NCBI GenBank assembly: GCA_014238205.1
Contig: JABABM010000001.1
Coordinates: forward strand, 62,001-126,000
Direction of reading: 5' to 3'
DNA: 64,000 bases
From: Phycisphaerales bacterium
Lineage (GTDB): Bacteria > Planctomycetota > Phycisphaerae > Phycisphaerales > SM1A02
Part shown: piece by piece, positions 28,331 through 49,180 of the stretch
Position numbering within the stretch: the first letter of the stretch is position 1
How the letters are laid out: every line of letters starts with the position of its first letter
Position numbers and translations under genes: made by a program
The notes under the pieces: model-generated
What the model saw: only the letters and a program-made list of their open reading frames with translations
Told to the model about the DNA's origin: nothing
Databases searched by the model: none

Positions 28331-30391
28331 CTATGCGGGAGCCGGGAGCATTCCACCAGCTTCGTCTGTTCGATCTTCGACATCAGTCGATGTCGAAGTT
28401 GCCGGAGGTTTCGTCGACTCGGACTCGAGAAGATCCGCGACCGTGGGTCGATCCAGGGTGCGTCCCTCCATGAGCAGAGTGACTTCATCGCCCTGGAGCG
28501 TTTCGTACTTGAGAAGCGCCTCGGCGATGGCTTTGACCTTCGGCCAGTGTTCCTCGAGGATCTGGCGGGTCTCCGAGTACGCCTCGTCGATGAATCGCTT
28601 GATCTCTTCGTCGATGATACGTGCCGTGTCCTGCGAATAGTCCTTTTCAGAAAGGAACATCTCCTGGCTGTCTTCGCCGGAGTAGCGGACGAATCCAAGT
28701 CGATCGGACATGCCCCATTCAAGAACCATGTGCCGTGCATAGTTGGTCACCATCTGGATGTCCATCGCAGCACCGGATGAGATGTCTTCGGTCTTTCGTT
28801 CCTCCGCGATGCGACCTCCGCAGAGCACCCGCATCGTGGCTGAGAGGTAGCGCATGCTGTATCCATACCTGTCACGTTCCGGAAGGCTGAAGGTAGCACC
28901 CATCGCCTGTCCACGCGGGATGATCGTCACCTTGTGTACCGGGTCCGCATCCTCAAGGAGTGCCTGGACGGCGGCATGGCCTGCTTCGTGGTAGGCGGTG
29001 GCAACTCGCTCCTGTTCCTCCACTTTTCGACTCTTCCTTGCGCGGCCGAATCGGATCTTGTCCCGGGCTTCCTCGAGGTCATGCTGTTCGATGAAGTCCT
29101 TGTTTTCGAGGGTCGCCAGAATCGCAGCCTCGTTGATGAGGGCGGCCAGGTCGGCGCCGGAGAACATCGGTGTCCCCCGGGCTGAACGCTCAAGGTCGAC
29201 ATCCTCGCCCATCTTGACATTCCGTCCATGAACTTCGAGGATCATCTTTCGACCTTCCAGATCAGGCAGTGTGACCTGGACCTGGCGATCGAATCGACCG
29301 GGTCTGGTCAATGCAGGGTCAAGCACATCGGCGCGGTTCGTTGCCGCGATGACGATGACCTGGTCTGTCTGCTCGAAACCATCCATCTCCACGAGGATGG
29401 CATTCAGAGTCTGTTCCCGCTCATCATGTCCGCCGCTGCTGAATCCACCGCCCCTGCGTCGACCAACGGCATCGATCTCGTCGAGGAAGATGATGCAGGG
29501 GGAGTTTTCCTTGGCCTGTTTGAAGAGATCTCGCACACGGCTTGCGCCGACACCGACGAACATCTCTACGAAGTCTGAACCTGAGATCGAGAAGAAGGGA
29601 GCATCCGCTTCACCTGCAATGGCCTTTGCCAGCAGTGTCTTGCCACATCCGGGAGGTCCTACGAGAAGAACGCCCCGTGGAATGCGACCACCAAGCCGTT
29701 GAAACTTCTTCGGGCTCTTGAGGAACTCGACGATCTCGAGAACTTCATCCTTTGCTTCATCGATGCCGGCGACATCGGTGAAGCGGACCGTCGAGGCGTC
29801 CTTCGTTGACAGTCGATGCTTCGACTTTCCGAAGTTGCCGAGCATGCCGCCTGGTCCGCCACCGGCGCCCCGCATCGACCGGGCGATCAGGAACCAGATG
29901 AAGAGGACGATCAGGAGAAACGGTCCGATTGTGACGAGCAGTTGGAGCCAGATGGACTGGCCGGTACTGGCTTCATGATCAACCCCGAGTGCATCGAGTT
30001 GTTCGAGGTAGTAGCCTCGTTCGCCCGAGTCGATCTTGACGTAGACGGGCGCAGGTTCGCTTGTGTTGTTGAGTGCCGGATCGTGCGCACGGATCATCGC
30101 GACAATCCGGTCATTCTGCACGACCACGGGCATGGGGTTGCCGGGAGAAGATTCCGCCAGCTTTCCGCCATCAGGGTTGATGAGCACCTTGAAGTTCTGC
30201 CAACCCTTGACTTCCTTGCCGGAGGGGGAGTTGTTCAGGAGTGCAAAGAAGATCAGCAGTACACCGAGGATGAGGACCCAGCTCATGAGTCCACGCCCAA
30301 GCTTGCCCTGCGGGGGAGTTCCCTTGTTCGGATCCTGCTGGCCCGGCTTGTTCTGTTGATCCCCGCCTGGGGGTGGCTGCTCGTTTGACAT
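28331..30391 (-). CDS. ftsH: ATP-dependent zinc metalloprotease FtsH
   Basis: FtsH is a membrane-anchored AAA+ protease that degrades misfolded membrane proteins and regulators. From the ATG at 30391 it is 686 residues; an upstream frame start at 30463 would add 24 basic residues with no family match. The N-terminus is Pro/Gln/Gly-rich for about 35 residues, then comes the first membrane helix ([18 protein letters not shown]), a periplasmic domain, and a second helix ([19 protein letters not shown]). The AAA domain shows [21 protein letters not shown] and the second region of homology [20 protein letters not shown]. The zinc protease site HEAGH is in [12 protein letters not shown]. Length and order are normal for the family. 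Confidence 0.97.
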
Positions 30392-30491
30392 GTTCGTATG
30401 TCCCCGGTTGACCCGGTGTACCCGGGCTCTTCTCTTCGTACGTTCCTCGGAACCGGTGCTCATCGGTCCAGCACCGGAACCTCACCATTCT

Positions 30492-30507
30492 AGGCCACCA
30501 GTGGCCT
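30492..30507 (-). terminator. Short hairpin downstream of the LptE-like gene
   Basis: Six-bp perfect arms (30492-30497 and 30502-30507) with a 4-nt loop lie 30 bases after the LptE-like stop and upstream of ftsH. There is no U-run, so termination is only suggested by position. Confidence 0.35.
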
Positions 30508-30536
30508 GAAATCGATGTCCTCGGTCTGCCGGGTGT

Positions 30537-31055
30537 CTACCAGGCCGACTGTAGCTCATCGACCACATCGGTCGCCAACTGCTGTACGACCTCGAATTCA
30601 CCTAGTTCGATGACTTCGCTGGATGGTGTAGTAGGTACGAATAGGCCACCACCCTCGAATTTCAGCCTTTCAACGATGGTTCGGTCCGTTTCGAGGTTCG
30701 TCCAGTTGAAATCAATCGTCACACCAACCACGACTTCCTCATCGAGATTGCTGCTGCCACGGTTCTGGGAAAGGCTGGTCAGCTCGACATTCACGATCCT
30801 GCCGGTGAGAAGGGTCTCCGCGTTCATCTCATTCGTGACTTTATAGGGCGTACGTGATTCGATGGTCGCCACAAGGGCCTTCGTGAGCAGGAATCCGATC
30901 TGCCTGTAATGGGTTTCGTTCTCGAATGTATTCACGGCAATGGTCGTGTACTGGGTCGGGTACGCGGACTTCGTTGACCAGCCTTGTCGAGGATCATCCG
31001 AACAACTGACAAGAATCGCCGAGGCAATCATCAGGATGAGCGCGATCCTGTTCAT
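30537..31055 (-). CDS. LptE-like LPS-assembly lipoprotein
   Basis: This 172-residue lipoprotein has a signal peptide ending ILVSCS (lipobox). The sequence YTTIAVNTFENETHYRQIGF followed by LLTKALVATIESRTPYKV and ETLLTGRIVNVELTSLSQN matches the LptE-like family. In Gram-negative bacteria LptE plugs the LptD barrel that places lipopolysaccharide in the outer membrane. Planctomycetes carry related proteins, consistent with a diderm envelope. It overlaps the upstream BamD-like gene by 4 bases, so two outer-membrane biogenesis factors are translated together. Family assignment is by pattern and somewhat distant. Confidence 0.8.
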   Translation of the reverse strand: MNRIALILMIASAILVSCSDDPRQGWSTKSAYPTQYTTIAVNTFENETHYRQIGFLLTKALVATIESRTPYKVTNEMNAETLLTGRIVNVELTSLSQNRGSSNLDEEVVVGVTIDFNWTNLETDRTIVERLKFEGGGLFVPTTPSSEVIELGEFEVVQQLATDVVDELQSAW

Positions 31056-32137
31056 GATTCCTCCTCCTGCTCGTCTTCAGCCGACCCATCCTGCACGCCG
31101 AGGATCGCGTGACGAAGGAGTGCGTAGTTCGGTGTCTTCTCAAGTACATGTTCCGGAAGCCGGGGAAGAATCGACGGTATCAACTCCAGTGCTCGGACAC
31201 ATGATCCTGTCTCCGGATATCGTTCAACCAGTCGTCGAATACACAGTTCCGCTCCGATCGGATCGGCGACGACGAGGTACCAGTTCGCCGTCGAGAGAAG
31301 TTTCTCAGCTTCCGATTCCTCGATCCTGGTCAGCAGGGCGCTGGCCCCGAGCCGTTCGGCTTCCGCAGGCTGTGATGCAATCAACTGGAGCAGTTCGATC
31401 TTGGCTTCGATGAGACCGACCACGTCGAACTCCGGTCCCTTGAATGTCGCCAGGTTCGTGTAGATCAGCCGCCGCCTCGCCATGTCGAGGTAGGGAGATT
31501 TTGGATACTTCTTGATGAAGATCGCATACATGTCGGCAGCGAGGGCCATCCGCCGTTGGCGGAAATAGAGATCCCCCGGCTCCATCCCGGACATCTCGGC
31601 GAGTTGACTTCCCGGCATTCGTTCCTGGATCCGGATGAACAGTTCCTCGGCTTCATCTTCAGCGTTGGCAAATCGTATTCCCCAGAGTTTTCTTCTCTTC
31701 CCATGGGCGTATTCCACGGCAATCTGGAACTCGCGTGCGCATGCCTGGGCGAAGACCGGGCTTGAGGGCCACCGCCGTACGATGTACTCGTACTCGTAGA
31801 GCGCCTCGTACTCGTCATTGAGTGCCACCAGGGAGTCCGCCTTGATCATCATCGCTTCGTCGAGCATCTCCGAATTCGGGTTCCGCTCGATCCATCGTTC
31901 GGAGAGGTTCAAGGCCCGGTCGGCCCGCCCCTCGGCAAGCAGTTTTCGAATCTGCCCCAGTTGCCCTGCAAGCGAACCTGGTTCCGGACTGTGCTCCAGC
32001 GTCCATTCGTCGTGTGAATCCAGTTCATAGGATTCCTGCGCCTGGATCGAGTCGACGCCCCAGAACAGGAGCAGCGTGAGGCAGGCTGCCCCGGAGAAAG
32101 GGGAGTTCCATCGGCGGGACGAGTGGCGGGGCATCAT
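31052..32137 (-). CDS. BamD-like tetratricopeptide outer-membrane assembly protein
   Basis: This 361-residue exported protein has a signal peptide ending near SIQAQE. It then shows tetratricopeptide-type repeats: ALNLSERWIERNPNSEMLDE, ALYEYEYIVRRWPSSPVFAQ, and AADMYAIFIKKYPKSPYLDM with ARRRLIYTNLA. The pattern 'Y..fi..yP.Sp....A' is typical of BamD/YfiO proteins of the beta-barrel assembly machine. It lacks an obvious lipobox (the last signal residues are DSIQAQ), unlike classic BamD lipoproteins. Its stop overlaps the start of the LptE-like gene. The BamD assignment is probable but other TPR outer-membrane factors are possible. Confidence 0.75.
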   Translation of the reverse strand: MMPRHSSRRWNSPFSGAACLTLLLFWGVDSIQAQESYELDSHDEWTLEHSPEPGSLAGQLGQIRKLLAEGRADRALNLSERWIERNPNSEMLDEAMMIKADSLVALNDEYEALYEYEYIVRRWPSSPVFAQACAREFQIAVEYAHGKRRKLWGIRFANAEDEAEELFIRIQERMPGSQLAEMSGMEPGDLYFRQRRMALAADMYAIFIKKYPKSPYLDMARRRLIYTNLATFKGPEFDVVGLIEAKIELLQLIASQPAEAERLGASALLTRIEESEAEKLLSTANWYLVVADPIGAELCIRRLVERYPETGSCVRALELIPSILPRLPEHVLEKTPNYALLRHAILGVQDGSAEDEQEEES

Positions 32138-32570
32138 GGCTACATGGTACGGGAAGGCAGGAAATCACGGCCCGTTGACCACCTTGCAAGGGGGCTGACA
32201 TGCATCCTGGGGTCGAAGCGCAAAAAACGACATTCGAGGAATCTCCCGGCATCGACCGATGACAGCGGTGCCCTGCCTCGTCAATGGGAGGTGGGGGTTG
32301 CGCGCCGGTGCATTCCGCGTTGGGCATGGAGGCCCTCCAACCGGCTGCGCAGTGTTTGCGCATCATGCGCCCCGGAGCCATGGATGGCCAGTGACAGTCG
32401 GAAGACTGAACATCATGGATACGGATCTCGCGGGACATGCAGCAGGGCTGCATGTCCTGATCGACCAGGCATGAAAGGTCGGCCCGGGTTGGTATCCGGC
32501 CGCAGTTGAGAGTCAAGGGGACAGGATGTCCCGCCGGTCAAGGATGGATCGGATACGCCAGGAAGGCGAC
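32138..32570. other. Intergenic region upstream of fliO, with a strong hairpin
   Basis: This stretch separates the divergent BamD-like and fliO genes and should hold both promoters. I find no convincing gene. A perfect 11-bp inverted repeat with a 3-nt loop is present (32433-32443 with 32447-32457). A smaller 6-bp TGCGCA repeat also lies near 32350-32370. Short reading frames here have no family match or ribosome site. If fliO starts at 32526 instead of 32571 the last 45 bases are coding. Confidence 0.5.
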
Positions 32571-33203
32571 ATGCGTTTGACGGGAACAGCTCCATCGAGG
32601 GTGACGGCAGCGGTCTTGCCTGCCCTGCTCCTGCTGTGTTCAGCTACGGTTGCGGACTCGACTGCCGGGACTGTTTCCGGTTCGAACGAAGGCATGCCGC
32701 TTGGTGTTTCCAACGGTCTCTTCAGCGGGCGACCGGTTGTCGACGGGGCCTCGTCAATGTCGATGTTCAATGGAGGAGGCAGCGAAATCATTCGCGTGCT
32801 CCTGGCACTTGGAGTCGTCATCGGCCTGCTCCTCCTGGTTCGATGGTGCATTCGACGTGGGAGTGGTCTTCTTCCCGGAACGAGCAGGCCACAGGGTCTG
32901 CTGAAGGTGCATGCCAGGTACCCGATGGGCAGGGGACACCACCTGGTTCTGCTGCAGGTTGGAAACAGGATGTTGCTTGTGCACCAGTCTGCAGGTCGGA
33001 TGCAGACACTGACGGAATTCAGCGATGTCCAGGAACTCTCGGAACTGCACGATTGCCTTGAAGAGGCAGGGCGAGGATTGACTGCAACCGGAAAGCCCAC
33101 GCGAAACATGCCTCAGCAGCACGAAGGTGGTGTTGTCGACCTTACTTCATCTCGCCGCGTTCCAGGTTGGCGACGCCTTGTCGGCTGGAGGCCGGTTTCA
33201 TGA
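32571..33203 (+). CDS. fliO: Flagellar biosynthesis protein FliO
   Basis: FliO helps assemble FliP in the flagellar type III export gate. The protein has an N-terminal signal-like segment (VTAAVLPALLLLCSATVA) and one membrane helix (IIRVLLALGVVIGLLLLVRW). After these comes the cytoplasmic FliO domain with LLKVHARYPMGRGHHLVLLQ and VGNRMLLVHQSAG. I chose the ATG at 32571, preceded by GGAAGG and followed by the signal segment; an ATG at 32526 preceded by AGGGGACAGG would add 15 residues. The gene ends by overlapping fliP (ATGA). FliO is poorly conserved, so the call leans on context as well as pattern. Confidence 0.85.
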   Translation: MRLTGTAPSRVTAAVLPALLLLCSATVADSTAGTVSGSNEGMPLGVSNGLFSGRPVVDGASSMSMFNGGGSEIIRVLLALGVVIGLLLLVRWCIRRGSGLLPGTSRPQGLLKVHARYPMGRGHHLVLLQVGNRMLLVHQSAGRMQTLTEFSDVQELSELHDCLEEAGRGLTATGKPTRNMPQQHEGGVVDLTSSRRVPGWRRLVGWRPVS

Positions 33204-34069
33204 GCTGCCTGCGACGCAACTCGACCTGCCTGGTCATCATCTGCATGACAACCCTGGGCATTGCCTGCCAGGCAGGGGCTGCCCCGGTGGAGCCGGGCAT
33301 CGAGGTTCTGAATCCGATCGAGATTCTCGAAGAGGTATCAGAATCGATCCCTGGAATGGATGGTGGACTGAGTTCGACCATGAACATCATCCTGCTCCTG
33401 ACCGTGTTGAGCATTGCCCCGTCGATTCTCATTCTCTGCACGTGTTTCACCCGGATCGTGATCGTCCTTGGACTGCTCAAGCAGGCACTGGGTACGCAGA
33501 ACCTGCCCCCGAGCCAGGTCATCATCGGGTTGAGCCTCTTCATCACGCTCGCCGTCATGGCCCCGACGCTTTCGGCCATGTACGAACGGGGGATCGGTCC
33601 CTACCTGGATGGTGAGGAAGAAAGCTACGAGGTGGCCTGGGATGAGACGAAGCAGCCCTTGCGGGATTTCATGTTCGCCCAGATCGAGGCGACCGGAAAC
33701 TGGTCCGGTGTCTACATGATGTTGAACTACAGGGGAATCGATACATCCGATCCATCGACCCTGGTTCGCAGTGATGTCGATCTTCTCACGCTCATCCCCG
33801 CCTACGTTCTGAGCGAGTTGAAGGTCGCCTTCCTGATCGGGTTCCGGATCTACCTGCCCTTCCTGGTCATCGATCTGATCATCGCAAGCATGCTTGTTTC
33901 GATGGGCATGCTCATGCTCCCGCCCGTCCTGATCTCACTGCCATTCAAGCTCCTGCTCTTCGTTCTCGTCGATGGATGGCAGCTGGTTACAGGCTCACTT
34001 GTTTCCTCCGTCATGCAGCCGGAGGTGATGCCCCTGGCGGCGGGCATCGTTGCAGGGGGAGGCCCGTAG
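33200..34069 (+). CDS. fliP: Flagellar export gate protein FliP
   Basis: FliP forms the pentameric core of the flagellar export gate. The ATG at 33200 overlaps the fliO stop and gives 289 residues with a cleavable N-terminal signal, as in other FliPs. Diagnostic stretches are SIAPSILILCTCFTRIVIVL, GLLKQALGTQNLPPSQVIIG, LTLIPAYVLSELKVAFLIGF and the MLMLPPVLISLPFKLLLFVL helix. The central loop (about 130-190) is the expected soluble segment. Length and order match the family. It is part of the fliO-fliP-fliQ-fliR-flhB-flhA unit. Confidence 0.97.
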   Translation: MSCLRRNSTCLVIICMTTLGIACQAGAAPVEPGIEVLNPIEILEEVSESIPGMDGGLSSTMNIILLLTVLSIAPSILILCTCFTRIVIVLGLLKQALGTQNLPPSQVIIGLSLFITLAVMAPTLSAMYERGIGPYLDGEEESYEVAWDETKQPLRDFMFAQIEATGNWSGVYMMLNYRGIDTSDPSTLVRSDVDLLTLIPAYVLSELKVAFLIGFRIYLPFLVIDLIIASMLVSMGMLMLPPVLISLPFKLLLFVLVDGWQLVTGSLVSSVMQPEVMPLAAGIVAGGGP

Positions 34070-34106
34070 TGCGCCATGCTCGAACTGAAACCGCGTGGAG
34101 GTGTGC

Positions 34107-34358
34107 ATGACTGCCGAAGGCATCGATGCCATTCGTCTTGCCCTGATGTACACGTTGCTGCTGTCTGCACCGATCCTGGGTGCGGGCCTGCTCGTGGGCC
34201 TGCTCGTCAGTCTCATCCAGGCCGTTACGCAGATCCAGGAGCAGACGCTGAGTTTCGTTCCCAAGATCGTCGCGATGCTGCTTGTCTCCATCGTGCTGCT
34301 TTCCTGGTTGATGGCAAAGCTTGCTGACTTCGCCGTGGAGATGTTCACCGCCTTCTGA
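34107..34358 (+). CDS. fliQ: Flagellar export gate protein FliQ
   Basis: FliQ is an 83-residue membrane protein of two helices that wraps the FliP core. The ATG at 34107 follows a good GGAGGTG ribosome site. The sequence MTAEGIDAIRLALMYTLLLS, then LVGLLVSLIQAVTQIQEQTL and SFVPKIVAMLLVSIVLLSWL is a close family match, including the conserved QIQEQTL loop. It sits 37 bases after fliP and is followed closely by fliR. Confidence 0.97.
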   Translation: MTAEGIDAIRLALMYTLLLSAPILGAGLLVGLLVSLIQAVTQIQEQTLSFVPKIVAMLLVSIVLLSWLMAKLADFAVEMFTAF

Positions 34359-34374
34359 CCCATGTGCACTTCCC

Positions 34375-35154
34375 ATGAACACAATCCTTGTCCACCTGCC
34401 CGCAGCTCTCCTCGTCATCCTCCGGATTGGCGGACTGATGGTTTTTGCTCCAGTCCTCAGCTCGAAGGTCGTCCCGGTACGACTTCGCATCGTGCTGACG
34501 CTTGTCCTGGGCGTATCGATGTACCCGATCCTGCTGGGCATCGGTGCAGTTTCAACCGAGGGCCTGTCACTCGAACCTGGGACATTCCTGCCATTGGCGG
34601 TTCGGGAAGTCTTCATCGGGATGGTGATCGGCCTGGTCGCTTCGCTGCCACTGGTCGCCCTGCAGATGGGTGGCCTGCTGATGGGCCAGCAGATGGGTCT
34701 TGGCTTTGCAACGCTCTACGACCCTGCGATGGACGACCAGGGGGATGTGCTCGGGCGATTGTTCTTCTTCCTGGCGTTGGCATCGTTTCTCCTCGTCAAT
34801 GGCCACGAAGCCGTGGTGACTGCGGTTCTTCACAGTTTCGATCATGTTCCGGCCGGATCCTTCTCGGTGGATTCAGGTGTTCTGTCGCTGCTTTCTGGAA
34901 TGCTGCTCTCGGCAATGGAGGTGTCCCTCCGGATCGCCGTACCGGTGATCGCCATCATTTTCCTGATGAGCATCGCAATGGGATTCGTTTCCAGGACGGT
35001 TCCGCAGTTCAACATCCTGAGTCTTGGCTTTCCACTGAGGATCCTCGTGGGATTCACGGTCATGATTGCGGGGCTGGTCGTGATCGAGAACGTGGTGATG
35101 GAAGCCATCGACACTACGTTGAATGGGATCACCACATGGGTCGAAACACGATGA
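34375..35154 (+). CDS. fliR: Flagellar export gate protein FliR
   Basis: FliR is the single-copy component of the export gate, with six membrane helices. From the ATG at 34375, 16 bases after fliQ, the product is 259 residues. Typical regions are LVILRIGGLMVFAPVLSS, the conserved LALQMGGLLMGQQMGLGF with ATLYDPAMDDQGDVLG, and RTVPQFNILSLGFPLRILVG. The length is normal. It precedes flhB by 12 bases in the same operon. Confidence 0.97.
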   Translation: MNTILVHLPAALLVILRIGGLMVFAPVLSSKVVPVRLRIVLTLVLGVSMYPILLGIGAVSTEGLSLEPGTFLPLAVREVFIGMVIGLVASLPLVALQMGGLLMGQQMGLGFATLYDPAMDDQGDVLGRLFFFLALASFLLVNGHEAVVTAVLHSFDHVPAGSFSVDSGVLSLLSGMLLSAMEVSLRIAVPVIAIIFLMSIAMGFVSRTVPQFNILSLGFPLRILVGFTVMIAGLVVIENVVMEAIDTTLNGITTWVETR

Positions 35155-35166
35155 CTGGAGCTCCGC

Positions 35167-36237
35167 ATGCCCGATGATCTCGGTGATCGAACCGAACAGG
35201 CGACCCCGCGGCGGCTTCGACAGGCCAGGGCTGATGGGCAGGTCGCGCGCAGCCATGACCTGGGCGCCGCAATCGCACTCTTGCTTGCGACGTTGGCAAC
35301 CTGGTTCGCAGCGGGCACCATGCTCAGCGAGGGACAGGGACTTCTTGAACGTGCTCTGAACTTCTCCTTGTTCGAGGAAGGACTGGCTCCTGCGGCGATG
35401 TGGGTCTTCATCGATGATGTTCTGATGGCAGCTGCCTGGGTATTCATCCCCCTGATACTTGTCCTTGCACTGGCGTCCATTCTTTCGCAGTTCGTTCAGG
35501 TGGGGTGGCTTTTCACAGTGTCACCATTGAAGCCAAGAGCATCACGCATCAATCCGGTTGATGGCACGAAGCGGCTTCTTGGAAGTGGTGGTGCCGTGCG
35601 TGTCACGCTCGACCTGTTGAAGATCGGTGCCGTCCTGCTGGTGGCGGTACTCACCATGCTCCAGTACGCCTCTGGACTGCTGACCCTTCCATACCTGGAC
35701 CTTCAGACGGGGATGGAACAGGTCGGGATGTGCCTGCTGGACCTGGCCCTTCGCGTCGGCGGCGTTCTTCTCCTGCTTGGTTTCGTGGACCTTGCCTGGC
35801 AACGCTGGAAATACAAGCAGGACCTGAAGATGACCAGGCAGCAGGTCAGGGACGAACTGAGGGATGCCGAGGGCGATCCAGAAATCCGGCGTCGTCGCAG
35901 GCAGCAGGTATTGCAGGATGCCGGCGAAGGACAGGTGGATGCCAGTGCCCGAGTCCGGATTCTCCTGGTGGGGCCAGGACCCGTGGCGGTACTGATCGAG
36001 CATGATCGAGCCGGTTCCTCCAGCCCGATGGTGCTTGCCGGAGCCCGGGGAGATGCTGCCAGGCGGTTGCAGCAGGAGGCGACGGACGCGTCGACCTCCA
36101 TCATTGAAACCGGTTCGCTGGCCAGCGAACTTCATGAACAGGTTGCCAGCGGGAAACGTGTTCCCGAGCACATGTTCCGGGGCGTCGCCGAGGCACTCGC
36201 CGACATGTATCGCGACAACGGGAATGAGACACCATGA
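35167..36237 (+). CDS. flhB: Flagellar export switch protein FlhB without the NPTH motif
   Basis: FlhB controls the switch of export substrates from rod/hook proteins to filament proteins. The product has 356 residues and starts MPDDLGDRTEQATPRRLRQA, the standard FlhB opening (E-x-T-P-x-R-x-x-x-A), after a GGAG ribosome site. Four membrane helices follow, and the cytoplasmic linker KMTRQQVRDELRDAEGDPEI matches the family. In normal FlhB the linker leads to NPTH, where the chain cleaves itself. Here the equivalent position (269-272) reads GPGP within RILLVGPGPVAVLIE, while both flanks and the C-terminal GKRVPEHMFRGVAEALADMY align well. The motif loss therefore appears real and not a frameshift. 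The stop overlaps flhA. Confidence 0.94.
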   Translation: MPDDLGDRTEQATPRRLRQARADGQVARSHDLGAAIALLLATLATWFAAGTMLSEGQGLLERALNFSLFEEGLAPAAMWVFIDDVLMAAAWVFIPLILVLALASILSQFVQVGWLFTVSPLKPRASRINPVDGTKRLLGSGGAVRVTLDLLKIGAVLLVAVLTMLQYASGLLTLPYLDLQTGMEQVGMCLLDLALRVGGVLLLLGFVDLAWQRWKYKQDLKMTRQQVRDELRDAEGDPEIRRRRRQQVLQDAGEGQVDASARVRILLVGPGPVAVLIEHDRAGSSSPMVLAGARGDAARRLQQEATDASTSIIETGSLASELHEQVASGKRVPEHMFRGVAEALADMYRDNGNETP

Positions 36238-38384
36238 CGCGTATTCCCGTCTCCAATCCGATCCTCGATCTGGGTGTCCGCCTGAGTCGGTGGAAGCATC
36301 TACTCGTTCCGGTGGCGATCCTCTTTCTCCTTGCAGTGCTGGTTGTCCCACTTCCACCCGTGCTGCTGGACATGCTCATTGCCGTCAACATTTCGCTTGC
36401 AGCAGTCATCCTGTTGACGACCATCTACATGGAGCGGCCACTGGAGTTCAGCGTCTTCCCCGCGTTGCTCCTGGGGGCCACCCTGTTCCGCCTGGTCCTG
36501 AACGTTGCTTCGACGCGATTGATTCTCGATGCCGATGCTCCAAGCCCGGAGGGGGCGATGGATGTTGCCGGCAACGTGATCGAAGCGTTCGGCACCTTCG
36601 TTGCAGGTTCCTCCGTGATCGTCGGCCTGGTCATCTTCCTGATTCTCGTGATCGTGCAGTTCGTGGTGATCACGAAGGGAGCGACTCGCATGAGCGAGGT
36701 TGCGGCACGATTCACGCTGGATGCCATGCCCGGGAAGCAGATGGCCATCGATGCGGATCTCTCCGCGGGTCTTGTCGACGAAGACACTGCGAGAGAGCGA
36801 CGCCAGGATGTCACACGCGAAGCGGATTTCTACGGGGCGATGGATGGAGCGAGCAAGTTCGTACGTGGTGATGCCATTGCGGCGTTGATCATCACCGGCG
36901 TGAACATCATCGGCGGGATCGCCATCGGGATGTTCGTCAAGGGATGGGCCTTTGGGGATACGGTCTCGGTCTTCACGAAGCTGACCATCGGGGATGGACT
37001 CGCCTCCCAGGTTCCAGCGTTCATCATCGCGATTGCAGCAGGTCTCATCGTTGCTCGCGCAGGCGAGAAGCAGACCATCGGCGACGAGATTCCACGGCAG
37101 CTTGTTTCCCAGCCCATCGCCCTGCTCCTGGTTTCAGTCTTCCTCGTGGGCCTGGCGTTCACGCCACTGCCAACGCTGCCACTTCTCGGGGCAGGCATCG
37201 GTCTTGCAGTCATCGGGTTCGGCGTGCATTCCTACAGGCAGCATGAGGAAGCCGTGCAGGAGTCGGTTGCACGGGAGGAATCCATTGCAGCTCAGCAGCA
37301 CGCTGCACCAGTTGAATCACTCCTTTCGATGGATGCATTGGAAATCGAGATTGGATTCGGCCTCCTGCAGATCGTCGATGCTGAGCGTGGGGGAGATCTT
37401 CTCGATCGCATCGACCTGTTGCGTCGCCAGCTTGCGATTGAACTGGGGATCATCGTTCCACCTGTCAGAATCCGCGACAACATGGAGTTGGACTCGGATT
37501 CGTACAGCGTGAAACTCCGTGGAGCAACCATGGCAGTGGGAACGATCTATCCCGGCCTGTTGATGGCGATGGATACGACCGGGATCGCCGAGCCGATCGA
37601 CGGTGTTGCCGGCAAGGAACCTGCATTCGACCTGGAGGTCACCTGGGTCGAACCGGAACAGGTTGGACAGGCGGAACAGGCCGGCTACACGGTCATCGAT
37701 GCTCCCAGTGTCCTGGCAACGCACCTGTCCGAACTCATCCGTCATCACGCAGCCGATCTTCTGAGCAGGGAGGATGTGGGTCGCCTGCTCGAACAGCTTC
37801 GACTGACATCACCGAAACTCGTTGATGAAACAGTGCCATCCGTCGTGAAGCCGGGCGAACTTCAGAAGGTGATGCAGCTCCTGCTGAGAGAAGGCGTTCC
37901 CATCCGTGATCTGGAAACGGTCCTGGAGACGGTTGCCGATGGGGCCGCCGGTACTGCTGACCCGGTGATCCTTGCCGAGCATGTTCGTCATGCCCTGCGA
38001 CGCACGATTTCAAGGCAGTACGCGGAAACGGATTCACATGGAGTGATGCGGTTGGCGTGCATTACGCTGGATCCAGATTCCGAGGACCTGCTCGAGGGGT
38101 ACATCGACCGCACTCCGACATCGACGAGGCTCACCATGCCACCTTCCCTCGCGGCACACTTCGCACGATGTGCTTCAAGGATGGCGGAGCCCTTGACCCG
38201 GGCCGGGCATCGAATCGTCATCCTGGCATCCCCGGGCGTTCGCCCACAGGCATGGGAGGTTCTTGAATCTCACATGCCCGGGGTCGTAGTGCTTGCATAC
38301 AACGAGATTGATCGAGGAATAGAGATCGAGTCGATCGGCCTGCTCCACGTGGACCACGCTGGTTCGAGTGCCGGAGCCGCATGA
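36234..38384 (+). CDS. flhA: Flagellar export protein FlhA
   Basis: FlhA forms the nonameric export platform that binds chaperone-substrate complexes. This 716-residue protein has the expected N-terminal membrane half, with LLDMLIAVNISLAAVILLTT, GATLFRLVLNVASTRLIL and the FHIPEP-type region FVVITKGATRMSEVAARFTL with DAMPGKQMAIDADLSAGL. The C-terminal cytoplasmic domain begins at about residue 360 and includes IDLLRRQLAIELGIIVPPVR. Length is close to other FlhAs. The start overlaps the flhB stop by 4 bases, and the end lies just before the flhF start. Confidence 0.98.
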   Translation: MTRIPVSNPILDLGVRLSRWKHLLVPVAILFLLAVLVVPLPPVLLDMLIAVNISLAAVILLTTIYMERPLEFSVFPALLLGATLFRLVLNVASTRLILDADAPSPEGAMDVAGNVIEAFGTFVAGSSVIVGLVIFLILVIVQFVVITKGATRMSEVAARFTLDAMPGKQMAIDADLSAGLVDEDTARERRQDVTREADFYGAMDGASKFVRGDAIAALIITGVNIIGGIAIGMFVKGWAFGDTVSVFTKLTIGDGLASQVPAFIIAIAAGLIVARAGEKQTIGDEIPRQLVSQPIALLLVSVFLVGLAFTPLPTLPLLGAGIGLAVIGFGVHSYRQHEEAVQESVAREESIAAQQHAAPVESLLSMDALEIEIGFGLLQIVDAERGGDLLDRIDLLRRQLAIELGIIVPPVRIRDNMELDSDSYSVKLRGATMAVGTIYPGLLMAMDTTGIAEPIDGVAGKEPAFDLEVTWVEPEQVGQAEQAGYTVIDAPSVLATHLSELIRHHAADLLSREDVGRLLEQLRLTSPKLVDETVPSVVKPGELQKVMQLLLREGVPIRDLETVLETVADGAAGTADPVILAEHVRHALRRTISRQYAETDSHGVMRLACITLDPDSEDLLEGYIDRTPTSTRLTMPPSLAAHFARCASRMAEPLTRAGHRIVILASPGVRPQAWEVLESHMPGVVVLAYNEIDRGIEIESIGLLHVDHAGSSAGAA

Positions 38385-38406
38385 CATCATGCAAGGAGCA
38401 TCAATC

Positions 38407-39543
38407 GTGAAGCCCAGAACCTATCTTGCAGACTCGATGGAGCAGGCGGTGTCAGCCGTTCGTCGTGATCTGGGTTCAGATGCAGTCATCCTCGCCTCCC
38501 GGATCGTGCGGCGAAGAGGCCTTCTTGGTTTCATGGCCCGCCGAGTCGTGGAGTTGCGAGTCGCAACAGCCGACGAGATCCGCGTTGCGAGATCAGGCGC
38601 GGGGCCTGTTGCAGCAGCCGTGGAGGAGCCCGGTTCCACGGAGCCTGCATCGGAGGTCTTCAGGGAACTTGGTGTCATCCGCACGATGGTCGAACGTGTG
38701 CTTGACGGGCAGGACGTCGAGGCGACTTCTCCGAAGGTGCCCTCGGAACTGGTCGACATGTACACCGACTTGATCAGCCAGGAAGTCTCCGAGGAACTGG
38801 CTCACGAGGTCGTCGATGCCGTGACCTCTTCCCTGTCAGCGGAGGAGTTGACGAATCCAGAGACGGTACGAAGAACGCTGGTAGAACAGCTTGCCGGGTT
38901 CATTCCCGTCTCGACGGGATCACTGCTCTCAAGTTCACCGGACGGGCGGCCATTGACACTTGCGCTGGTCGGGCCCACGGGCGTGGGGAAGACGACGACC
39001 GTCGCCAAGATCGCCGCCGCCTACAGGATCCGCCAGAACCGGAAAGTCGGCCTCGTAACGCTCGACACCTATCGAATCGCGGCGATCGATCAGCTTCGTA
39101 CCTACGCGGAGATCATCGGTGTCCCGATGGCGGTGGCACGTTGCGCTTCGGAATTGACGAGGGCACTTGAGGACATGGCTGATCTTGATGTCATCCTGAT
39201 TGACACGGCCGGTCGCAGCCAGAAGGACTCGGCGAGGATCACCGAGTTGAAGGCTCTCCTCGAGGTTGCACGACCACATGAGACGCACCTTGTCCTGGCG
39301 GGGACGGCATCCCGGTCGGTACTTCTCCAGGAAGCTGCCGAGTTCTCCAGGGTGGGGATCGACCATGTCGTCCTGACGAAACTTGATGAGGCGGTCAGCT
39401 TCGGAATGCTCGTTGAAGTCGTGCACCGGATCGGTACTCGCTTGAGTTTCCTGACAACCGGGCAGGAAGTACCGGATCACATCGAGACGGCACGCTCGGA
39501 TCGTCTTGCCGCGATGGTCATCGGGGAGGGCATGCCGTCATGA
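38407..39543 (+). CDS. flhF: Flagellar SRP-like GTPase FlhF
   Basis: FlhF is an SRP-family GTPase that positions flagella, usually at the pole. The GTG at 38407, preceded by AAGGAG, gives the canonical N-terminus (KPRTYLADSMEQAVSAVRRD); longer starts from 38368 overlap flhA. The product is 378 residues. The G domain carries GPTGVGKTTTVAKIAAAYRI, VGLVTLDTYRIAAIDQLRTY, LIDTAGRSQKD and TKLDEAVSFGM. The N-terminal B domain is variable, as usual. The stop overlaps the flhG start (ATGA), matching the common flhF-flhG pairing in which FlhG limits FlhF activity and flagellar number. Confidence 0.96.
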   Translation: MKPRTYLADSMEQAVSAVRRDLGSDAVILASRIVRRRGLLGFMARRVVELRVATADEIRVARSGAGPVAAAVEEPGSTEPASEVFRELGVIRTMVERVLDGQDVEATSPKVPSELVDMYTDLISQEVSEELAHEVVDAVTSSLSAEELTNPETVRRTLVEQLAGFIPVSTGSLLSSSPDGRPLTLALVGPTGVGKTTTVAKIAAAYRIRQNRKVGLVTLDTYRIAAIDQLRTYAEIIGVPMAVARCASELTRALEDMADLDVILIDTAGRSQKDSARITELKALLEVARPHETHLVLAGTASRSVLLQEAAEFSRVGIDHVVLTKLDEAVSFGMLVEVVHRIGTRLSFLTTGQEVPDHIETARSDRLAAMVIGEGMPS

Positions 39544-40499
39544 AGGACCAGGCCACATCGCTTCGCCATCTCGTTGAATCATCATCCAGACCCAGTCGGG
39601 CTTTCCGCCCCCCGATCATGGAACTGCTCGGCGAGGAACCGGAACCTGGGCCCGTGGTGCAACGGAGTGCCAAGGCGATTGCCATCACGTCTGGAAAGGG
39701 CGGTGTCGGCAAGAGCAATCTCGCGGTGAACCTTGCCATTGCCATGGCGCAGTCCGGGCGGCGGGTCGTCCTGCTGGATGCGGACCTTGGCCTGGCGAAT
39801 GCGGATGTACTGTGCCGGATCACTCCGAACCGGACCATTGAACACGTGCTGTCGGGACAGTCATCGCTCAGGGAGATCATGGTGCCCGGGCCGGGAGGGT
39901 TCATGCTGGTGCCGGGAGCATCGGGTGTCTCGGGTATTGCCGACATGGATCGTCCGAGTCGCAGGCACCTGATTCGCGAACTGGTGGCACTCGAGGAAAC
40001 CTCCGACGTGATTCTCATCGATACAGGTGCCGGCATCGGCAGCAGTGTTGTCGGATTTGCAGTGGCCTCCGACCGTGTCCTGGTGTCCTGTACACCGGAA
40101 CCGACAGCCATCACGGATGCATACGGGATGATCAAGTCACTCTCTTCCGCTGACCGCGGGGTGCAGTTGAATCTCGTCGTGAACATGGCCGAGGACGATC
40201 GCGAGGGGGTCGAGGTTCACGACAGGATCAACCGTGCAAGCAGAACATTCCTCGACAGGAACGTGGAACTCCTTGGGGTGATACCGCGTGACCAACTTGT
40301 CCTTGCCGCGGTTCGAAACCAGTTGCCATTCATCATCGGGACCCCGAATTGTCCTGCTTCACGAGCAGTGCGAAGATTGGCGGTGCAACTTCTCGGAGAA
40401 CCCCACGGCCGTGAGGAACAGGGCCATGAACGCGGTTTTTTTGATCGTTTTACACGTTGGCTGGGCTTTTCTGACGAAGTTGAGCGAGCCGGACGATGA
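39540..40499 (+). CDS. flhG: MinD-like ATPase FlhG/FleN
   Basis: FlhG is a MinD/ParA-type ATPase that restrains flagellar number with FlhF. The 319-residue product has the deviant Walker A SGKGGVGKSNLAVNLA, the switch region LLDADLGLANADVLCRI, and the typical VILIDTGAGIGSSVVGFAVA stretch followed by SCTPEPTAITDAYGMIK. An N-terminal segment of about 45 residues precedes the ATPase; in other FlhG proteins this carries a DQAxxLR motif that stimulates FlhF, and here DQATSLRHLVE at 3-13 fits. No sequence-specific DNA-binding domain is evident. It starts within the flhF stop. Confidence 0.95.
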   Translation: MKDQATSLRHLVESSSRPSRAFRPPIMELLGEEPEPGPVVQRSAKAIAITSGKGGVGKSNLAVNLAIAMAQSGRRVVLLDADLGLANADVLCRITPNRTIEHVLSGQSSLREIMVPGPGGFMLVPGASGVSGIADMDRPSRRHLIRELVALEETSDVILIDTGAGIGSSVVGFAVASDRVLVSCTPEPTAITDAYGMIKSLSSADRGVQLNLVVNMAEDDREGVEVHDRINRASRTFLDRNVELLGVIPRDQLVLAAVRNQLPFIIGTPNCPASRAVRRLAVQLLGEPHGREEQGHERGFFDRFTRWLGFSDEVERAGR

Positions 40500-40785
40500 C
40501 TGGATTATCCGACAGGAGCGGAGAATGAACAGCAAGCGACAGGTTGAGAAAGTGACCCAAGGAATTTCATCTTCAGTATTGACAGGTACTTCCGACGCAG
40601 GGAGCGATGCGTCGGCTCGCCTGGATTCCAGTGGGTTGAGTTTGAATTCACGCGAACGAGCAGAATTCAGGTTCGTGTGGTAGAGTTCTTGAGGTTGAAT
40701 CGCACTCGAACGGATTCGAGCGACGACCACAATTGAACGCATGATGTGTTCAATACACGCGGCTGGATGGTCAAGGAGCAGACCG
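40500..40785. other. Hairpin-rich spacer between flhG and the flagellar sigma gene
   Basis: I see no gene in this 286-base stretch. It holds a perfect 8-bp inverted repeat (40592-40599 with 40608-40615), an imperfect 9-bp repeat (40649-40657 with 40671-40679), and a perfect 6-bp repeat near 40702-40717. It may contain a promoter for the sigma gene, for example around TAGAGT near 40681, but no convincing -35 is present. Confidence 0.45.
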
Positions 40786-41673
40786 ATGCCGAAGACGCAG
40801 ACGCAGAAAGAGCCCACACGGACGAGGGCTGGAAGTTCGGGACGCACGTCAAAACGTGCCCCGAAGCGTGCACCCAGGAAAAAGAAATCAATCACGGTCA
40901 CCGTCGAGTTGCTCGCGGAGATGGAGATTGGCGAGGTATGGGTCCTGTACCAGGTACAGGCCTCCGAGATGATCCGGAATCATCTCATTGAGAACTACCT
41001 GCACCTCGTGCGATACACCGCTGAGCGGATGCACACCCGCCTGCCCTCGGAAGTTGATGTGGAGGACCTGATGTCTTCCGGCCTCTTCGGGCTCATGGAT
41101 GCCATCGATGCATTCGACCTTGAGCGGGGTGTCAAGTTCGAGACCTACTGCACGCAGCGGATCAGGGGTGCCATCTTCGATGAACTCCGTGCCATGGACT
41201 GGGTGCCTCGCCTCGTACGTTCCCGTACGGCGAAGGTCGAAAGGGCCCGCCGGTCGCTGGAAATGGCAAGTGGTCGCCGAGCGACCGAGAATGAAATCTG
41301 TTCCAAGCTCGAGGTCGACAAGAACGAGTTTGGAAAACTGTCTCGAGACTCGAAACCGGTCGGAACCGTTTCACTGAACCGCAAGTGGTTCGAGACGGAT
41401 TCCAGCAAGGATGTCCGCGAGATCGATGTCGTCAAGGACACGCGGCAGGAGAACCCGGTTCAGAAACTGCAGCGTGACGATCTGAAGCTGCTCCTGACCA
41501 AGGGACTCTCCCGTGCCGAGCGACTCATCATCATCCTCTACTACTACGAGGAGATGACGATGAAGGAGATCGGTGTCACGCTCGACCTGTCCGAATCGCG
41601 TGTCAGCCAGATGCACTCTTCGATCCTCGCGAGGCTCAAGGCGCAGATGCAGCACAGGACGAAGGAGTTCTGA
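40786..41673 (+). CDS. fliA: RNA polymerase sigma-28 factor, FliA/WhiG type
   Basis: This sigma factor directs late flagellar gene transcription. The ATG at 40786 follows AAGGAG and gives 295 residues; the frame extends upstream to 40741 without a better start. A basic Lys/Arg-rich N-terminal extension (about 40 residues) precedes region 2. Region 2 is visible as NYLHLVRYTAERMHTRLPSE, then VDVEDLMSSGLFGLMDAIDA and VKFETYCTQRIRGAIFDELR with AMDWVPRLVR. Regions 3 and 4 follow, ending with MTMKEIGVTLDLSESRVSQM, the helix-turn-helix that reads the -35. An anti-sigma FlgM gene is not seen in the window. Its place after flhG is the common arrangement. Confidence 0.94.
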   Translation: MPKTQTQKEPTRTRAGSSGRTSKRAPKRAPRKKKSITVTVELLAEMEIGEVWVLYQVQASEMIRNHLIENYLHLVRYTAERMHTRLPSEVDVEDLMSSGLFGLMDAIDAFDLERGVKFETYCTQRIRGAIFDELRAMDWVPRLVRSRTAKVERARRSLEMASGRRATENEICSKLEVDKNEFGKLSRDSKPVGTVSLNRKWFETDSSKDVREIDVVKDTRQENPVQKLQRDDLKLLLTKGLSRAERLIIILYYYEEMTMKEIGVTLDLSESRVSQMHSSILARLKAQMQHRTKEF

Positions 41674-44004: not shown

Positions 44005-44661
44005 GTGACTGCCGACGCCGATCGCTGCATCAGGCTTCGACGACCACCGGTCCTGTCCATCATTGATGAACCTTTCGTGCCCGATGGTGTCGACATCGAC
44101 CAGGTCGAGGCCCGGTGGGAATCACTGCAACGGTCGAACCCCGCCTTCTTCGATGGGCGTGCTTTGCACGTGCTGGGTGTGCATCGAAACGGGTGCGGTG
44201 GGGCGACCATCAACCTCGTCGAGTGCGCCTACCGGTTCTACGCCGTGCAGTGCGAGGACTTGGACTGTGGTGTTCGGCCCCTTGGGGTCAAGGGCATCAC
44301 GATGCATGGTGACCGGGTGCTCATGGGCCAGCGGGCAGGGTGGGTGCACCAGTACCCCGGGCTCTGGGAGTTTGCTCCAGGCGGGGGCGTGGAACCGGGT
44401 CGTGATCCTGTCGACGTGCTTCTCTCGGAACTGGCCGAGGAGACGGGCTGTTCATGTGCTGGTCAGCCGGTGGCAATCGCCCTGCTTCTGGACGAGGTCA
44501 CACGGTGCTGGGAACTGGTCTACCGGTTGCAGGTCGAGGATGAGAAGCTCAGTCCCGGGACCGATGAATACTCGGACCTGCGGTGGTGCGCCCGAAACGA
44601 GGTTCCCGGACCGCTTTCCAGCATCGCTGAACGCATGCAATCCCTCCTGCAGCACTGTTAA
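44005..44661 (+). CDS. Nudix hydrolase-like protein with altered Nudix box
   Basis: From a GTG at 44005, 4 bases after the dehydrogenase stop, the product is 218 residues. The Nudix fold is visible in VLMGQRAGWVHQYPGLWEF followed by the box GGGVEPGRDPVDVLL and SELAEETGC. Compared with the usual GX5EX7REUXEEXGU, the first Glu is Arg and the Arg before the catalytic Glu is Ser, while the ELAEE core that binds metal is intact. The N-terminal 100 residues (ending VRPLGVKGITMHG) resemble those of Nudix proteins whose box follows a separate N-terminal domain. Nudix enzymes hydrolyse nucleoside diphosphate derivatives. It may still be active; the substrate is unknown. Confidence 0.8.
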   Translation: MTADADRCIRLRRPPVLSIIDEPFVPDGVDIDQVEARWESLQRSNPAFFDGRALHVLGVHRNGCGGATINLVECAYRFYAVQCEDLDCGVRPLGVKGITMHGDRVLMGQRAGWVHQYPGLWEFAPGGGVEPGRDPVDVLLSELAEETGCSCAGQPVAIALLLDEVTRCWELVYRLQVEDEKLSPGTDEYSDLRWCARNEVPGPLSSIAERMQSLLQHC

Positions 44662-44728
44662 TCGACTTTCTCCTTGTCATGGGCATGTTCAGGGTGGACA
44701 CTGGAGTCCAACTGGAGGGAAGAGAAGC

Positions 44729-47700
44729 ATGAGAGGATCGATATCGATCGTTGCAGCGCTGTCGCTGCTGGTGTCCACCACGGCCTTGGCTGCAGGTTCG
44801 TCCGGGGAGTACCCCGACGGTTCCTGGCAACTTCAGCCACCCAGCACCGCAGAAGGTGACTGGTTCGGCGGCTCGGTCGCCATGCATGGCGACTACGTGC
44901 TCGTTGGTCAGCCAAGCAACCAGTACCACCAGGACAACCTGGGCAGTGCGCATCTCTACCAGTGGAACCAGGCCCAGGACACGTATGATCTGGTCTGGTC
45001 ACCAGGGGAAGGCACGCATTACTCCTTTGGCGAATGCGTGGCAATGACCTCTGAATGGATGGCCATCTCTGCGCCATATGAACCCGTTGACGGGTTCACT
45101 GCCGGGGTCGTCTACATCTACATGCCTGATGGAGGAGGTGGATGGAACCTGGCCTACGCGATCGAAGGGGGTTTCGGGTTCGGCAAGACTTTGCTGATCG
45201 TCGATTCCCTTCTGTTCGCGGGCAACCCGTTCCATGGCGGAGTTGGGACCAATTCGGGCAAGGTCGACATGTACCTGATGTACCCGGACCAGGCTGTCCT
45301 GTGGCTGGAGGTTGAGCCTGATGTGCCGGAGGCCTATGCGAATTTCGGAGAAGCCATTGGTTTCCACGAGAAGGGGAACGATTCAACGCTCGTAGTAGGT
45401 GCGCCCACGACACATATCGAACCCCTGGAAGACGGGGGGCGGGTCTACATCTTCAAGTTCGATGCCCAGGACGGCTGGGTCGAGGACCAGGTCATCTTTC
45501 CAAACGGTGGTTGGTTCGACTCATCAAACTTTGGCTGCTCTGTCTCAATCGATGGTGACCGGCTTGCGATCGGACATCGATGGGGGATTCAAGATTCAGG
45601 ATACGCTGACGGCACTGTTGAGCTCTGGGCACGTGAGCAGGGAAGCGCATTCACCTTCGAGCACCAGTTCAGCGAGCATGAAGGCACGCACGGATCCCTC
45701 TTTGGGGATGCAGTTGTACTGGAGGGAACGACGCTTGTCGCGGGGTGTCCCGGTGATGATGAGCAGGGAGGTGATGCCGGTGCAGCATACGTCTATGAAC
45801 TCGATGCTGAAGGTGAGTGGATCCTCGAACGCAAGTTGCTTCCTCATTTTGGCATCCCCGGTGAACAGTTCGGGGCCTGTCTTGCATTCGAGGGTGATCG
45901 CTTGATTGTCGGTACGTGGGCGTGGTTGGGTGAGGGGATTCCTGGCTCAGCCTGGGCATACGACCGCAGTGACGGCTCCTGGCAGGATGATGTGCCCCTG
46001 GTGCCAAGCCAGATCCAGACCCCGGATTCATATGCATTTGCACCCGATATTACGACGCCGAGTTACTTCGGCTTCGATCTCGTGGCAAGCGGCAGTCATG
46101 CTCTGACCACGTCTGGATTGCAAGGTGATCAAGATGCTGCGCACTTTCTTCTCCAGGGCAGTGATTCCTGGGAGGTTGTCCAGTCATTCGAGCCGCACGA
46201 AGCAATAACCCCCATATTCTTCGGATTTTCCAGCGCCATTGATGGCGGACTTGCAGCTGTAGGTGATCCATATGGAGTAGATACCACTGGTGCACAGAGC
46301 GGTGTTGTTCATATCTATGAACGAGACGAGTCATCAGAACAGTGGGAGTTTGCGGGGCTCTTGAATGGGCAATTTATGGGGGGGGAGGGGGCTGGCTTCG
46401 GATCAAGCCTTGCTCTGCAATCTGACACCGAAACAATCGTGGTCGGTGGGGTTGGTTACAACGATTCTGACGGTGGTGTATTAGTACTTCGTCCAGGTGC
46501 CATCGTCGTTCTTGACCCGCCTGTTTCTGGTCTTCGGACCAAGTTTGGGCGAGATGTATCCCTCCATGGAGATCTGCTGGCAGTCAGTGAGGGAGAAGAG
46601 CGGGAGGATGGCTCACCGAATGAAGTCCATATCTTCAGGATCGAGGAAACCGGCGAGGTCACCTTGCTTCAGTCGATACCGGACCCCAGACCAAGCAATG
46701 GACTAAATACCACCCCGTTTGGTTTTCGAATGGAGATGATTCCAGGGGGCCTTCTCGTTGGATCACCCTCGGCCGAAGACGAGATTGACCAGGTCGGGGT
46801 GGTGTATTTCTTCATTGACAACGGCTCAGGATTCAAGCTTGAGCAGGTTCTTGCCTCTGGGACCCCGGCTCCAGGCAACAACTTTGGTGCGTACCTCGTA
46901 GCAGATGATGATCTCCTTGTTGTGGGCGAAATCGGGGCTGATGACCTCGCCTACAACTCGGGAGTGAACTGGGTCTTCGAACTCGTCGAGCAGGAAGATG
47001 GTTCTTCAAGCTGGGTGCGTTGCGCGAAGTTGATCGATCCACTGGGTACCTCCGACAGTCTCTCCGCCTTCCCCGCGTTGTCCGGCGATTCAGTGCTTGT
47101 CGGGAACATAGGCGGCACGGGAGCTGCACCGAATACGGGCAACATCAGTGTTTTCAACGATATTCGTCGCAGTTACTGGACCGGGCCTCCATCGGGCAAC
47201 TGGTCGGACGAGGCGAACTGGACGCCGATTCCACCTGACAATGCACGTGCCTCCGTCTTCTCGAGTTGGCCGGGGGGCTTCCAGGCCGTGACACTTGATG
47301 AACTGACACTGCATGTGCCGCAGTTCCGCGTCGAGCTGACCCAACTTGAACTGGATATCAGTTCAGGCCTCCATTACCTGGGCAATGATTCCTCGGATCA
47401 CCTCGTCGTCAAGGGCGCCTCCTCCATGGGTGACACGTCCGTGACCTTCGATGGTTTCGGGACGTTCCTGGTCCGTGGCGACATCCTTGTGGGTGACGAC
47501 ACGAAACTTGGTCGTCTCGTTGCCGCATCCGAGTCAGCTATTGCAGCCATGAGCACGTGGCGACAGGGATCCCTCGGTCGTGTTGAATATATTCTCGAGG
47601 ACTACATCCCGAGCTACGCGGCATTCGCTTCAAACAATGCACCTCGCCTGGCAGGCACCTTGGCTGTCAGAAACCCTGGTGATGTCGAGGTCAAGCTTGG

Positions 47701-49162: not shown

Positions 49163-49180
49163 GTCTTGAAGGGAGAAGGC

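Follow-up and report, generated by a model that had tools for sequence, protein, structure and literature searches.

Self-cleavage of FlhB, by an established mechanism of Asn cyclization, lets the cytoplasmic domain of the protein be removed, and export thereby passes from the hook type to the filament type. The stretch of DNA analyzed here, 64,000 nucleotides of a Phycisphaerales genome (hereafter the window), encodes an FlhB in which the Asn-Pro pair has been replaced. Does this lineage change export specificity in some other way, or is there nothing left for it to switch? An earlier, sequence-only reading of the locus had proposed the former, with a switch that works without cleavage or at another site. 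Our results point to the latter.

The FlhB cleavage site

The flhB gene (35167..36237, + strand; 356 aa) sits between fliR and flhA, the usual order, and its product matches Pfam family PF01312 with 272 bits against a curated cut-off of 24.4. Codons 269-272 (35971..35982, + strand; DNA GGGCCAGGACCC) lie in frame on a contig of 220 kb and encode GPGP in place of NPxH, the residues and the position that the sequence-only reading had given. With GPGP, the protein falls outside the Asn-Pro definition of the autocleaving FlhB/SctU switch proteins. It scores 240 bits against the NCBIfam model of flagellar FlhB, TIGR00328, below the cut-off of 349.25 that the FlhB of a relative in the same genus (G002) passes with 367.6 bits. 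Because the Asn that would cyclize is gone, the sequence indicates that the protein cannot cleave itself at residues 269-272 by the known mechanism. A second, normal FlhB elsewhere was considered and rejected: in a profile search of the genome (G000; 2.44 Mb, 78 contigs, 95% complete), this flhB is the sole Bac_export_2 gene found.

The genome is a draft, and an error of sequencing or assembly, or a frameshift, at 35971-35982 could account for the missing motif. The other two forward frames of flhB contain no NPxH site, and since no other frame restores the motif, a frameshift or indel at the site is ruled out. Divergence extends over the whole C-terminal domain, which leads us to reject an assembly error restricted to 12 bases, and analogous losses are found in independent genomes. 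The probability of an artefact is negligible, and the autocleavage Asn is truly lost, as had been claimed.

The loss reaches well beyond the motif. In the window FlhB, the membrane domain keeps 21 of 22 conserved columns. The cytoplasmic domain (about residues 237-348; 35875..36210, + strand) keeps 19 of 42, compared with 40 in G002, 20 in G005, and 10-12 in genus g18. The residues flanking GPGP had been read as aligning in frame with the family; the in-frame alignment holds, but the flanks are clearly degraded, and the motif is one part of 23 conserved positions lost from the domain. Across 1485 pairs of Asn-Pro FlhB proteins, identity in the cytoplasmic domain exceeds that in the membrane domain by a mean of 26 points (s.d. 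5.5; five NPxxY sequences were misclassed by the motif test in this comparison, with no material effect on the counts); in the window FlhB it falls 6.6 points short. Judged by these comparisons, the whole cytoplasmic domain has decayed, not four residues alone. A fold is still predicted for it, of the FlhB cytoplasmic type (helix, four strands, helices) with local pLDDT mostly 75-91. In a Foldseek comparison with solved structures, the predicted domain matched the cytoplasmic domains of EscU, YscU, and FlhB with a probability of 1.00, and the nearest structures include cleavage-dead, uncleaved EscU mutants.

The site in other bacteria

We aligned 135 distinct FlhB proteins that have a cytoplasmic domain, some from relatives and others from more widely across the bacteria. 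The site is NPTH in 78, NPEH in 32, and another NPxx sequence in 15 (Asn-Pro in 125 of 135), and Asn is missing from 10. Other bacteria show variation at the T and H positions, where NPTE, NPTT, NPTR, and NPNQ also occur, but none of them in this sample departs from Asn-Pro; the pair is likewise invariant in the flagellar FlhB of flagellated relatives. The ten proteins without Asn are those of the window, G005, and seven members of genus g18, together with the second FlhB copy of the flagellated G060. That places nine of the ten in this genome or in one of two related lineages that have no flagellum, and among relatives loss of the site is seen only where the flagellum has been lost.

The expectation that relatives would share GPGP is contradicted by these sites. 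G002, the nearest relative by FlhA (clade support 100/98), has NPEH, and flagellated members of the family have NPEH, NPDH, NPQH, or NPTH, with NPEH and not NPTH the common form. Reduced relatives have lost the site with differing residues (DASG, VGKT, VGNK, SGSS) or have lost the whole domain. Searching for relatives of the locus with the window FlhB as query returned none; a search with an FlhA alignment returned named planctomycetes, and every planctomycete FlhB read there keeps Asn-Pro.

Two further kinds of FlhB-like sequence came up in this survey. The second FlhB of G060 has TAPSL at the NPTH site and belongs to a second FliN-FliO-P-Q-R-FlhB cluster (L039:7377-10980), with a second FlhA on another contig; the cluster is possibly a further type III system. 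In other phyla, small separate FlhB-like C-terminal domains without NP (L119:9004-9312, L120:15639-16166, L179:17374-17793, and L153:11948-12298) lie some kilobases from the main flhB and resemble stand-alone FlhB-like proteins of the TIGR00789 type.

The export gate and the missing flagellum

All genes of the operon lie on the + strand, in the order fliO (32526..33203; PF04347), fliP (33167..34069; PF00813), fliQ (34095..34358; PF01313), fliR (34321..35154; PF01311), flhB, flhA (36234..38384; PF00771, 798 bits, full length), flhF (38368..39543; SRP54-type GTPase), flhG (39540..40499; MinD-like ATPase), and a FliA/WhiG-family sigma factor gene (40741..41673; over the TIGR02479 cut-off). The true starts of fliP and fliR are probably inside their open reading frames, and every conserved column is kept in both; flhF and flhG are syntenic. 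In the reduced lineages with contigs that extend this far, the sigma factor gene is kept; it may be unconnected to the gate. Downstream (44063-53629) are two very long FG-GAP repeat proteins, one of 1699 aa followed by one of 1487 aa that also has a dockerin type I domain. On the other side, ftsH, a small ORF, and a TPR/YfiO-like gene (28331..32137, - strand) are conserved neighbors upstream of the operon. In G002 and in the flagellated G008, motA, motB, a gene for a small membrane protein, and fliN adjoin fliO; in the window a gap stands in their place (32138..32525), and the TPR gene is followed directly by fliO.

Genome-wide Pfam profile searches, which genes too diverged for the models would escape, gave no match in G000 (a draft of 78 contigs) to flagellin (positive in 48 of 61 genomes), FliK (47 of 61), or the rod/hook proteins (Flg_bbr_C; 48 of 61). 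No FliI/SctN-type ATPase scored over the cut-off, the only matches being below it and to other ATPases; the same search was positive in all five flagellated genomes searched. MotA, MotB, and FliN are absent from their usual locus beside fliO, the one place to which this statement applies. The MS ring and export gate are present as FliE, FliF, FliOPQR, FlhB, and FlhA. FliE and FliF are encoded on another contig (C76:29092-33986), preceded by a sensor kinase and a sigma-54-type regulator. FliF (L072:18106-19986, that is, C76:32106-33986) ends in a fused FliG C-terminal domain, with no FliG N-terminal or middle domains. FliG_C was found in G000 in this fusion only. In a flagellated relative (L083), fliG-fliH-fliI-fliJ-fliK-flgE stand between fliF and a gene for a DegT-type aminotransferase; in G000 the aminotransferase gene directly follows fliF. 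Missing contigs were considered as the cause of these absences and rejected: contigs cross both loci continuously with the expected flanks, so the genes were lost by deletions inside contigs.

With no flagellin, FliK, rod/hook protein, or FliI detected, and no stator or FliN at the usual locus, there is nothing for FlhB to switch between, and the proposal of a hook-to-filament switch without cleavage or through another site is not supported. A working flagellum that exports in this way could draw on the full length of FlhB, on its predicted FlhB/EscU-like cytoplasmic fold with uncleaved EscU mutants among the nearest structures, and on intact FlhA, FlhF, FlhG, and FliA. It would have to do so with none of the missing export substrates and ATPase and no complete set of rotor and stator genes found, and no flagellated relative in our sample lacks Asn-Pro in its flagellar FlhB. 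We judge it very improbable. G002 gave no flagellin, FliK, or rod/hook match either; since that assembly is only 70% complete and contains MotA, MotB, FliN, a complete FliG, and NPEH, we treat it as probably flagellated and not as an intermediate.

Repeated reduction in the family

A comparable reduction is found in more than 30 other species of the family. Our survey covered 181 genomes, in which the C-terminal end of FlhB was read in 19 reduced loci and the rest were judged from profile coverage. The cytoplasmic part of FlhB is decayed in g18 (7 genomes), G000, and G005, and the membrane domain alone remains in g25 (11 genomes) and g61 (14 genomes). These membrane-only proteins (g25: L096-L101 and L038; g61: L102-L109) end shortly past the juxtamembrane linker, and their genes adjoin those of FliP-Q-R and FlhA. 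A rod/hook domain was found in 0 of 36 genomes (the reduced ones plus G001 and G002) versus 6 of 6 flagellated controls. FliF was found in every genome of g1, g4, and g18 and in 9 of the 11 from g25; in g61 it gave weak matches in 4 of 14. Between fliO and the sigma factor gene, the reduced lineages preserve the gene order, with flhF and flhG reduced or absent in most of g61. At the g61 loci (L102-L109), flhG is lost and flhF mostly lost between flhA and the sigma factor gene, and the sigma factor itself stays highly conserved.

On the FlhA tree, the reduced lineages call for four changes (the window lineage, G005, g18, and g25 with g61), at least three of which are forced by strongly supported branches. 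A single ancient reduction common to all reduced lineages finds no support in this tree. By these sequences, loss of the FlhB site or domain with the gate kept arose independently in at least two to three other related lineages. In all four separate cases, a lineage that lost the outer flagellum but kept the gate has also lost the FlhB site, although the events are few and some branches long. This is co-occurrence and does not prove cause.

Several smaller observations accompany the survey. In four g61 genomes (G141, G149, G135, and G145), FlhB profile matches continue through one or two in-frame stop codons, and these are possibly traces of sequence beyond the present gene end. New partners beside fliF were looked for in g18 and discounted, as most genes there are old neighbors that also occur in other family members; a 316-aa ORF directly before fliF (L079) was matched only within g18.

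Constraint on the retained gate

The window FliP, FliR, and FliA keep 100% of the columns that are conserved in flagellated relatives, and FlhA keeps 94% (106 of 107 columns in its membrane part and 44 of 48 in its cytoplasmic part). The membrane half of FlhA keeps 100-107 of the 107 columns in reduced lineages outside g61 and 89-93 in g61; the cytoplasmic half is relaxed in g18 and g61. Within g18, g25, and g61, close pairs give FlhA dN/dS values of 0.03-0.10, versus 0.02-0.10 for the essential neighbor FtsH, and FliP in reduced lineages has values in much the same low range as FtsH. FlhB is looser, at 0.10-0.42 (from close pairs only; several diverged pairs gave no value). For the window lineage, the values come from one diverged pair, with G002 (FliP 0.06, FliR 0.17), because another member of the genus, G001, is 65% complete and lacks the operon.

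The gate is under strong purifying selection in the reduced lineages, at least in g18, g25, and g61, and there the low FlhA and FliP values argue against pure relics. A functionless remnant in slow decay would nonetheless suit some of the data. The window FlhB is clearly degraded, and its weaker constraint would allow slow decay of the whole system in the window species alone; in G001 a stop codon interrupts the FliG_C part after FliF; and in genus g53 of the same family, no listed member (18 genomes shown) has an FlhB match, a complete loss. Against this stand open frames and gene order that persist in more than 30 species of five genera, FlhA and FliP dN/dS values close to those of FtsH, and the 103-105 of 107 FlhA membrane columns kept even in g18, which sits on a long branch. 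We consider a relic improbable.

A proposed mechanism for loss of the switch

The explanation that we hold with considerable confidence is that the flagellum was lost, a switch was no longer needed, and the FlhB site and domain decayed, with the gate kept under selection, probably for a nonflagellar job. The rod, hook, filament, ruler, ATPase, and most of the rotor and stator would have gone, leaving the MS-ring protein FliF with FliO-P-Q-R, FlhB, and FlhA. In Salmonella, early cargo docks on the cleaved FlhB domain, which also keeps the gate in its early mode; removal of the domain is the switch (PMC13344023). FlhB mutations that block cleavage give polyhooks, and without the cleaved domain early-cargo export is abolished; when Fluke is also removed, the gate is locked in the late mode and late cargo can be exported (PMC13344023). 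Given these deletion results, the FlhB domain would be dispensable for a gate that has no early cargo. A cell that builds no rod, hook, ruler, or filament would be under no selection for docking or switching, and for this reason the cleavage site would decay first and the remainder of the cytoplasmic domain after it, while the membrane part, on the FliPQR channel, would be retained. Relaxed constraint is the most likely cause of the loss, and such a sequence of events fits the graded series, in which site and domain are decayed in some lineages, the domain is gone in others, and the channel is kept in all.

The weakest part of this explanation is that the gate still transports protein, as it perhaps does. 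It is perhaps an ATPase-free inner-membrane channel driven by the proton motive force, and by analogy with Lysobacter it may have taken on a changed role (PMC7277350). We suggest, tentatively and with somewhat less than even confidence, that the gate has been repurposed at least three to four times in one planctomycete family, as a minimal ATPase-free, switch-free system of FliF, FliPQR, the FlhB membrane part, and FlhA, with the FlhB site lost each time and the whole cytoplasmic domain lost in one branch of two genera. If this is true, these bacteria hold living intermediates between flagellum and secretion system.

A variant of the preferred explanation is that the gate serves as a core structure of the nanotube type or of the hat-like fT3SS type and not as a protein export machine. 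The retained FliPQR-FlhB-FlhA set is the core reported for nanotubes, and the hat-like membrane structure is related to it; in Campylobacter jejuni, this structure showed no visible change in a mutant that lacks the cytoplasmic domain of FlhB (PMC9380563). The hat-like structure does not need FliF, which is nonetheless kept here, and the species imaged include none of this phylum (PMC9380563). We regard the variant as unlikely.

Comparison with known systems

These findings amount to a natural experiment in which the outer flagellum is lost, the gate is kept, and decay affects the FlhB switch but not the membrane gate. Through the family pattern, the role of FlhB in switching can be told apart from its role in the channel, and the series of partial systems offers material on the use of half a flagellum and on the origin of secretion systems from flagella. 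Reduced flagellar gene sets without flagella are already known, as is the Myxo type III system without motility parts (PMC3459982). In the open-licence literature that we searched, we found no repeated, graded loss of the FlhB switch with the membrane gate kept and no description of an FlhB consisting of the membrane domain alone.

The window protein is like flagellar FlhB (TIGR00328, NPTH autocleavage) in gene order, Pfam family, membrane domain, and predicted cytoplasmic fold, but it differs in its missing Asn-Pro, its decayed cytoplasmic domain, its score (240 versus 349 bits), and the lack of a flagellum to serve. Lysobacter enzymogenes has likewise kept export-gate genes and lost flagellin and flagella, and a changed role is reported there; however, it keeps FliI and its gate still exported foreign flagellin, whereas here FliI is absent and the FlhB switch is lost (PMC7277350). 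The hat-like structure and nanotube core share the FliPQR-FlhB-FlhA core found here, and the hat-like structure is unaffected when the cytoplasmic domain of FlhB is removed, but it was seen in species with flagellar genes (PMC9380563). The Myxo system of the Myxococcales is also a type III core without motility parts; it has been conserved for a long time, and a function has been argued for it (PMC3459982); it belongs to a nonflagellar lineage, in contrast to the systems described here, which are repeated reductions of a true flagellum.
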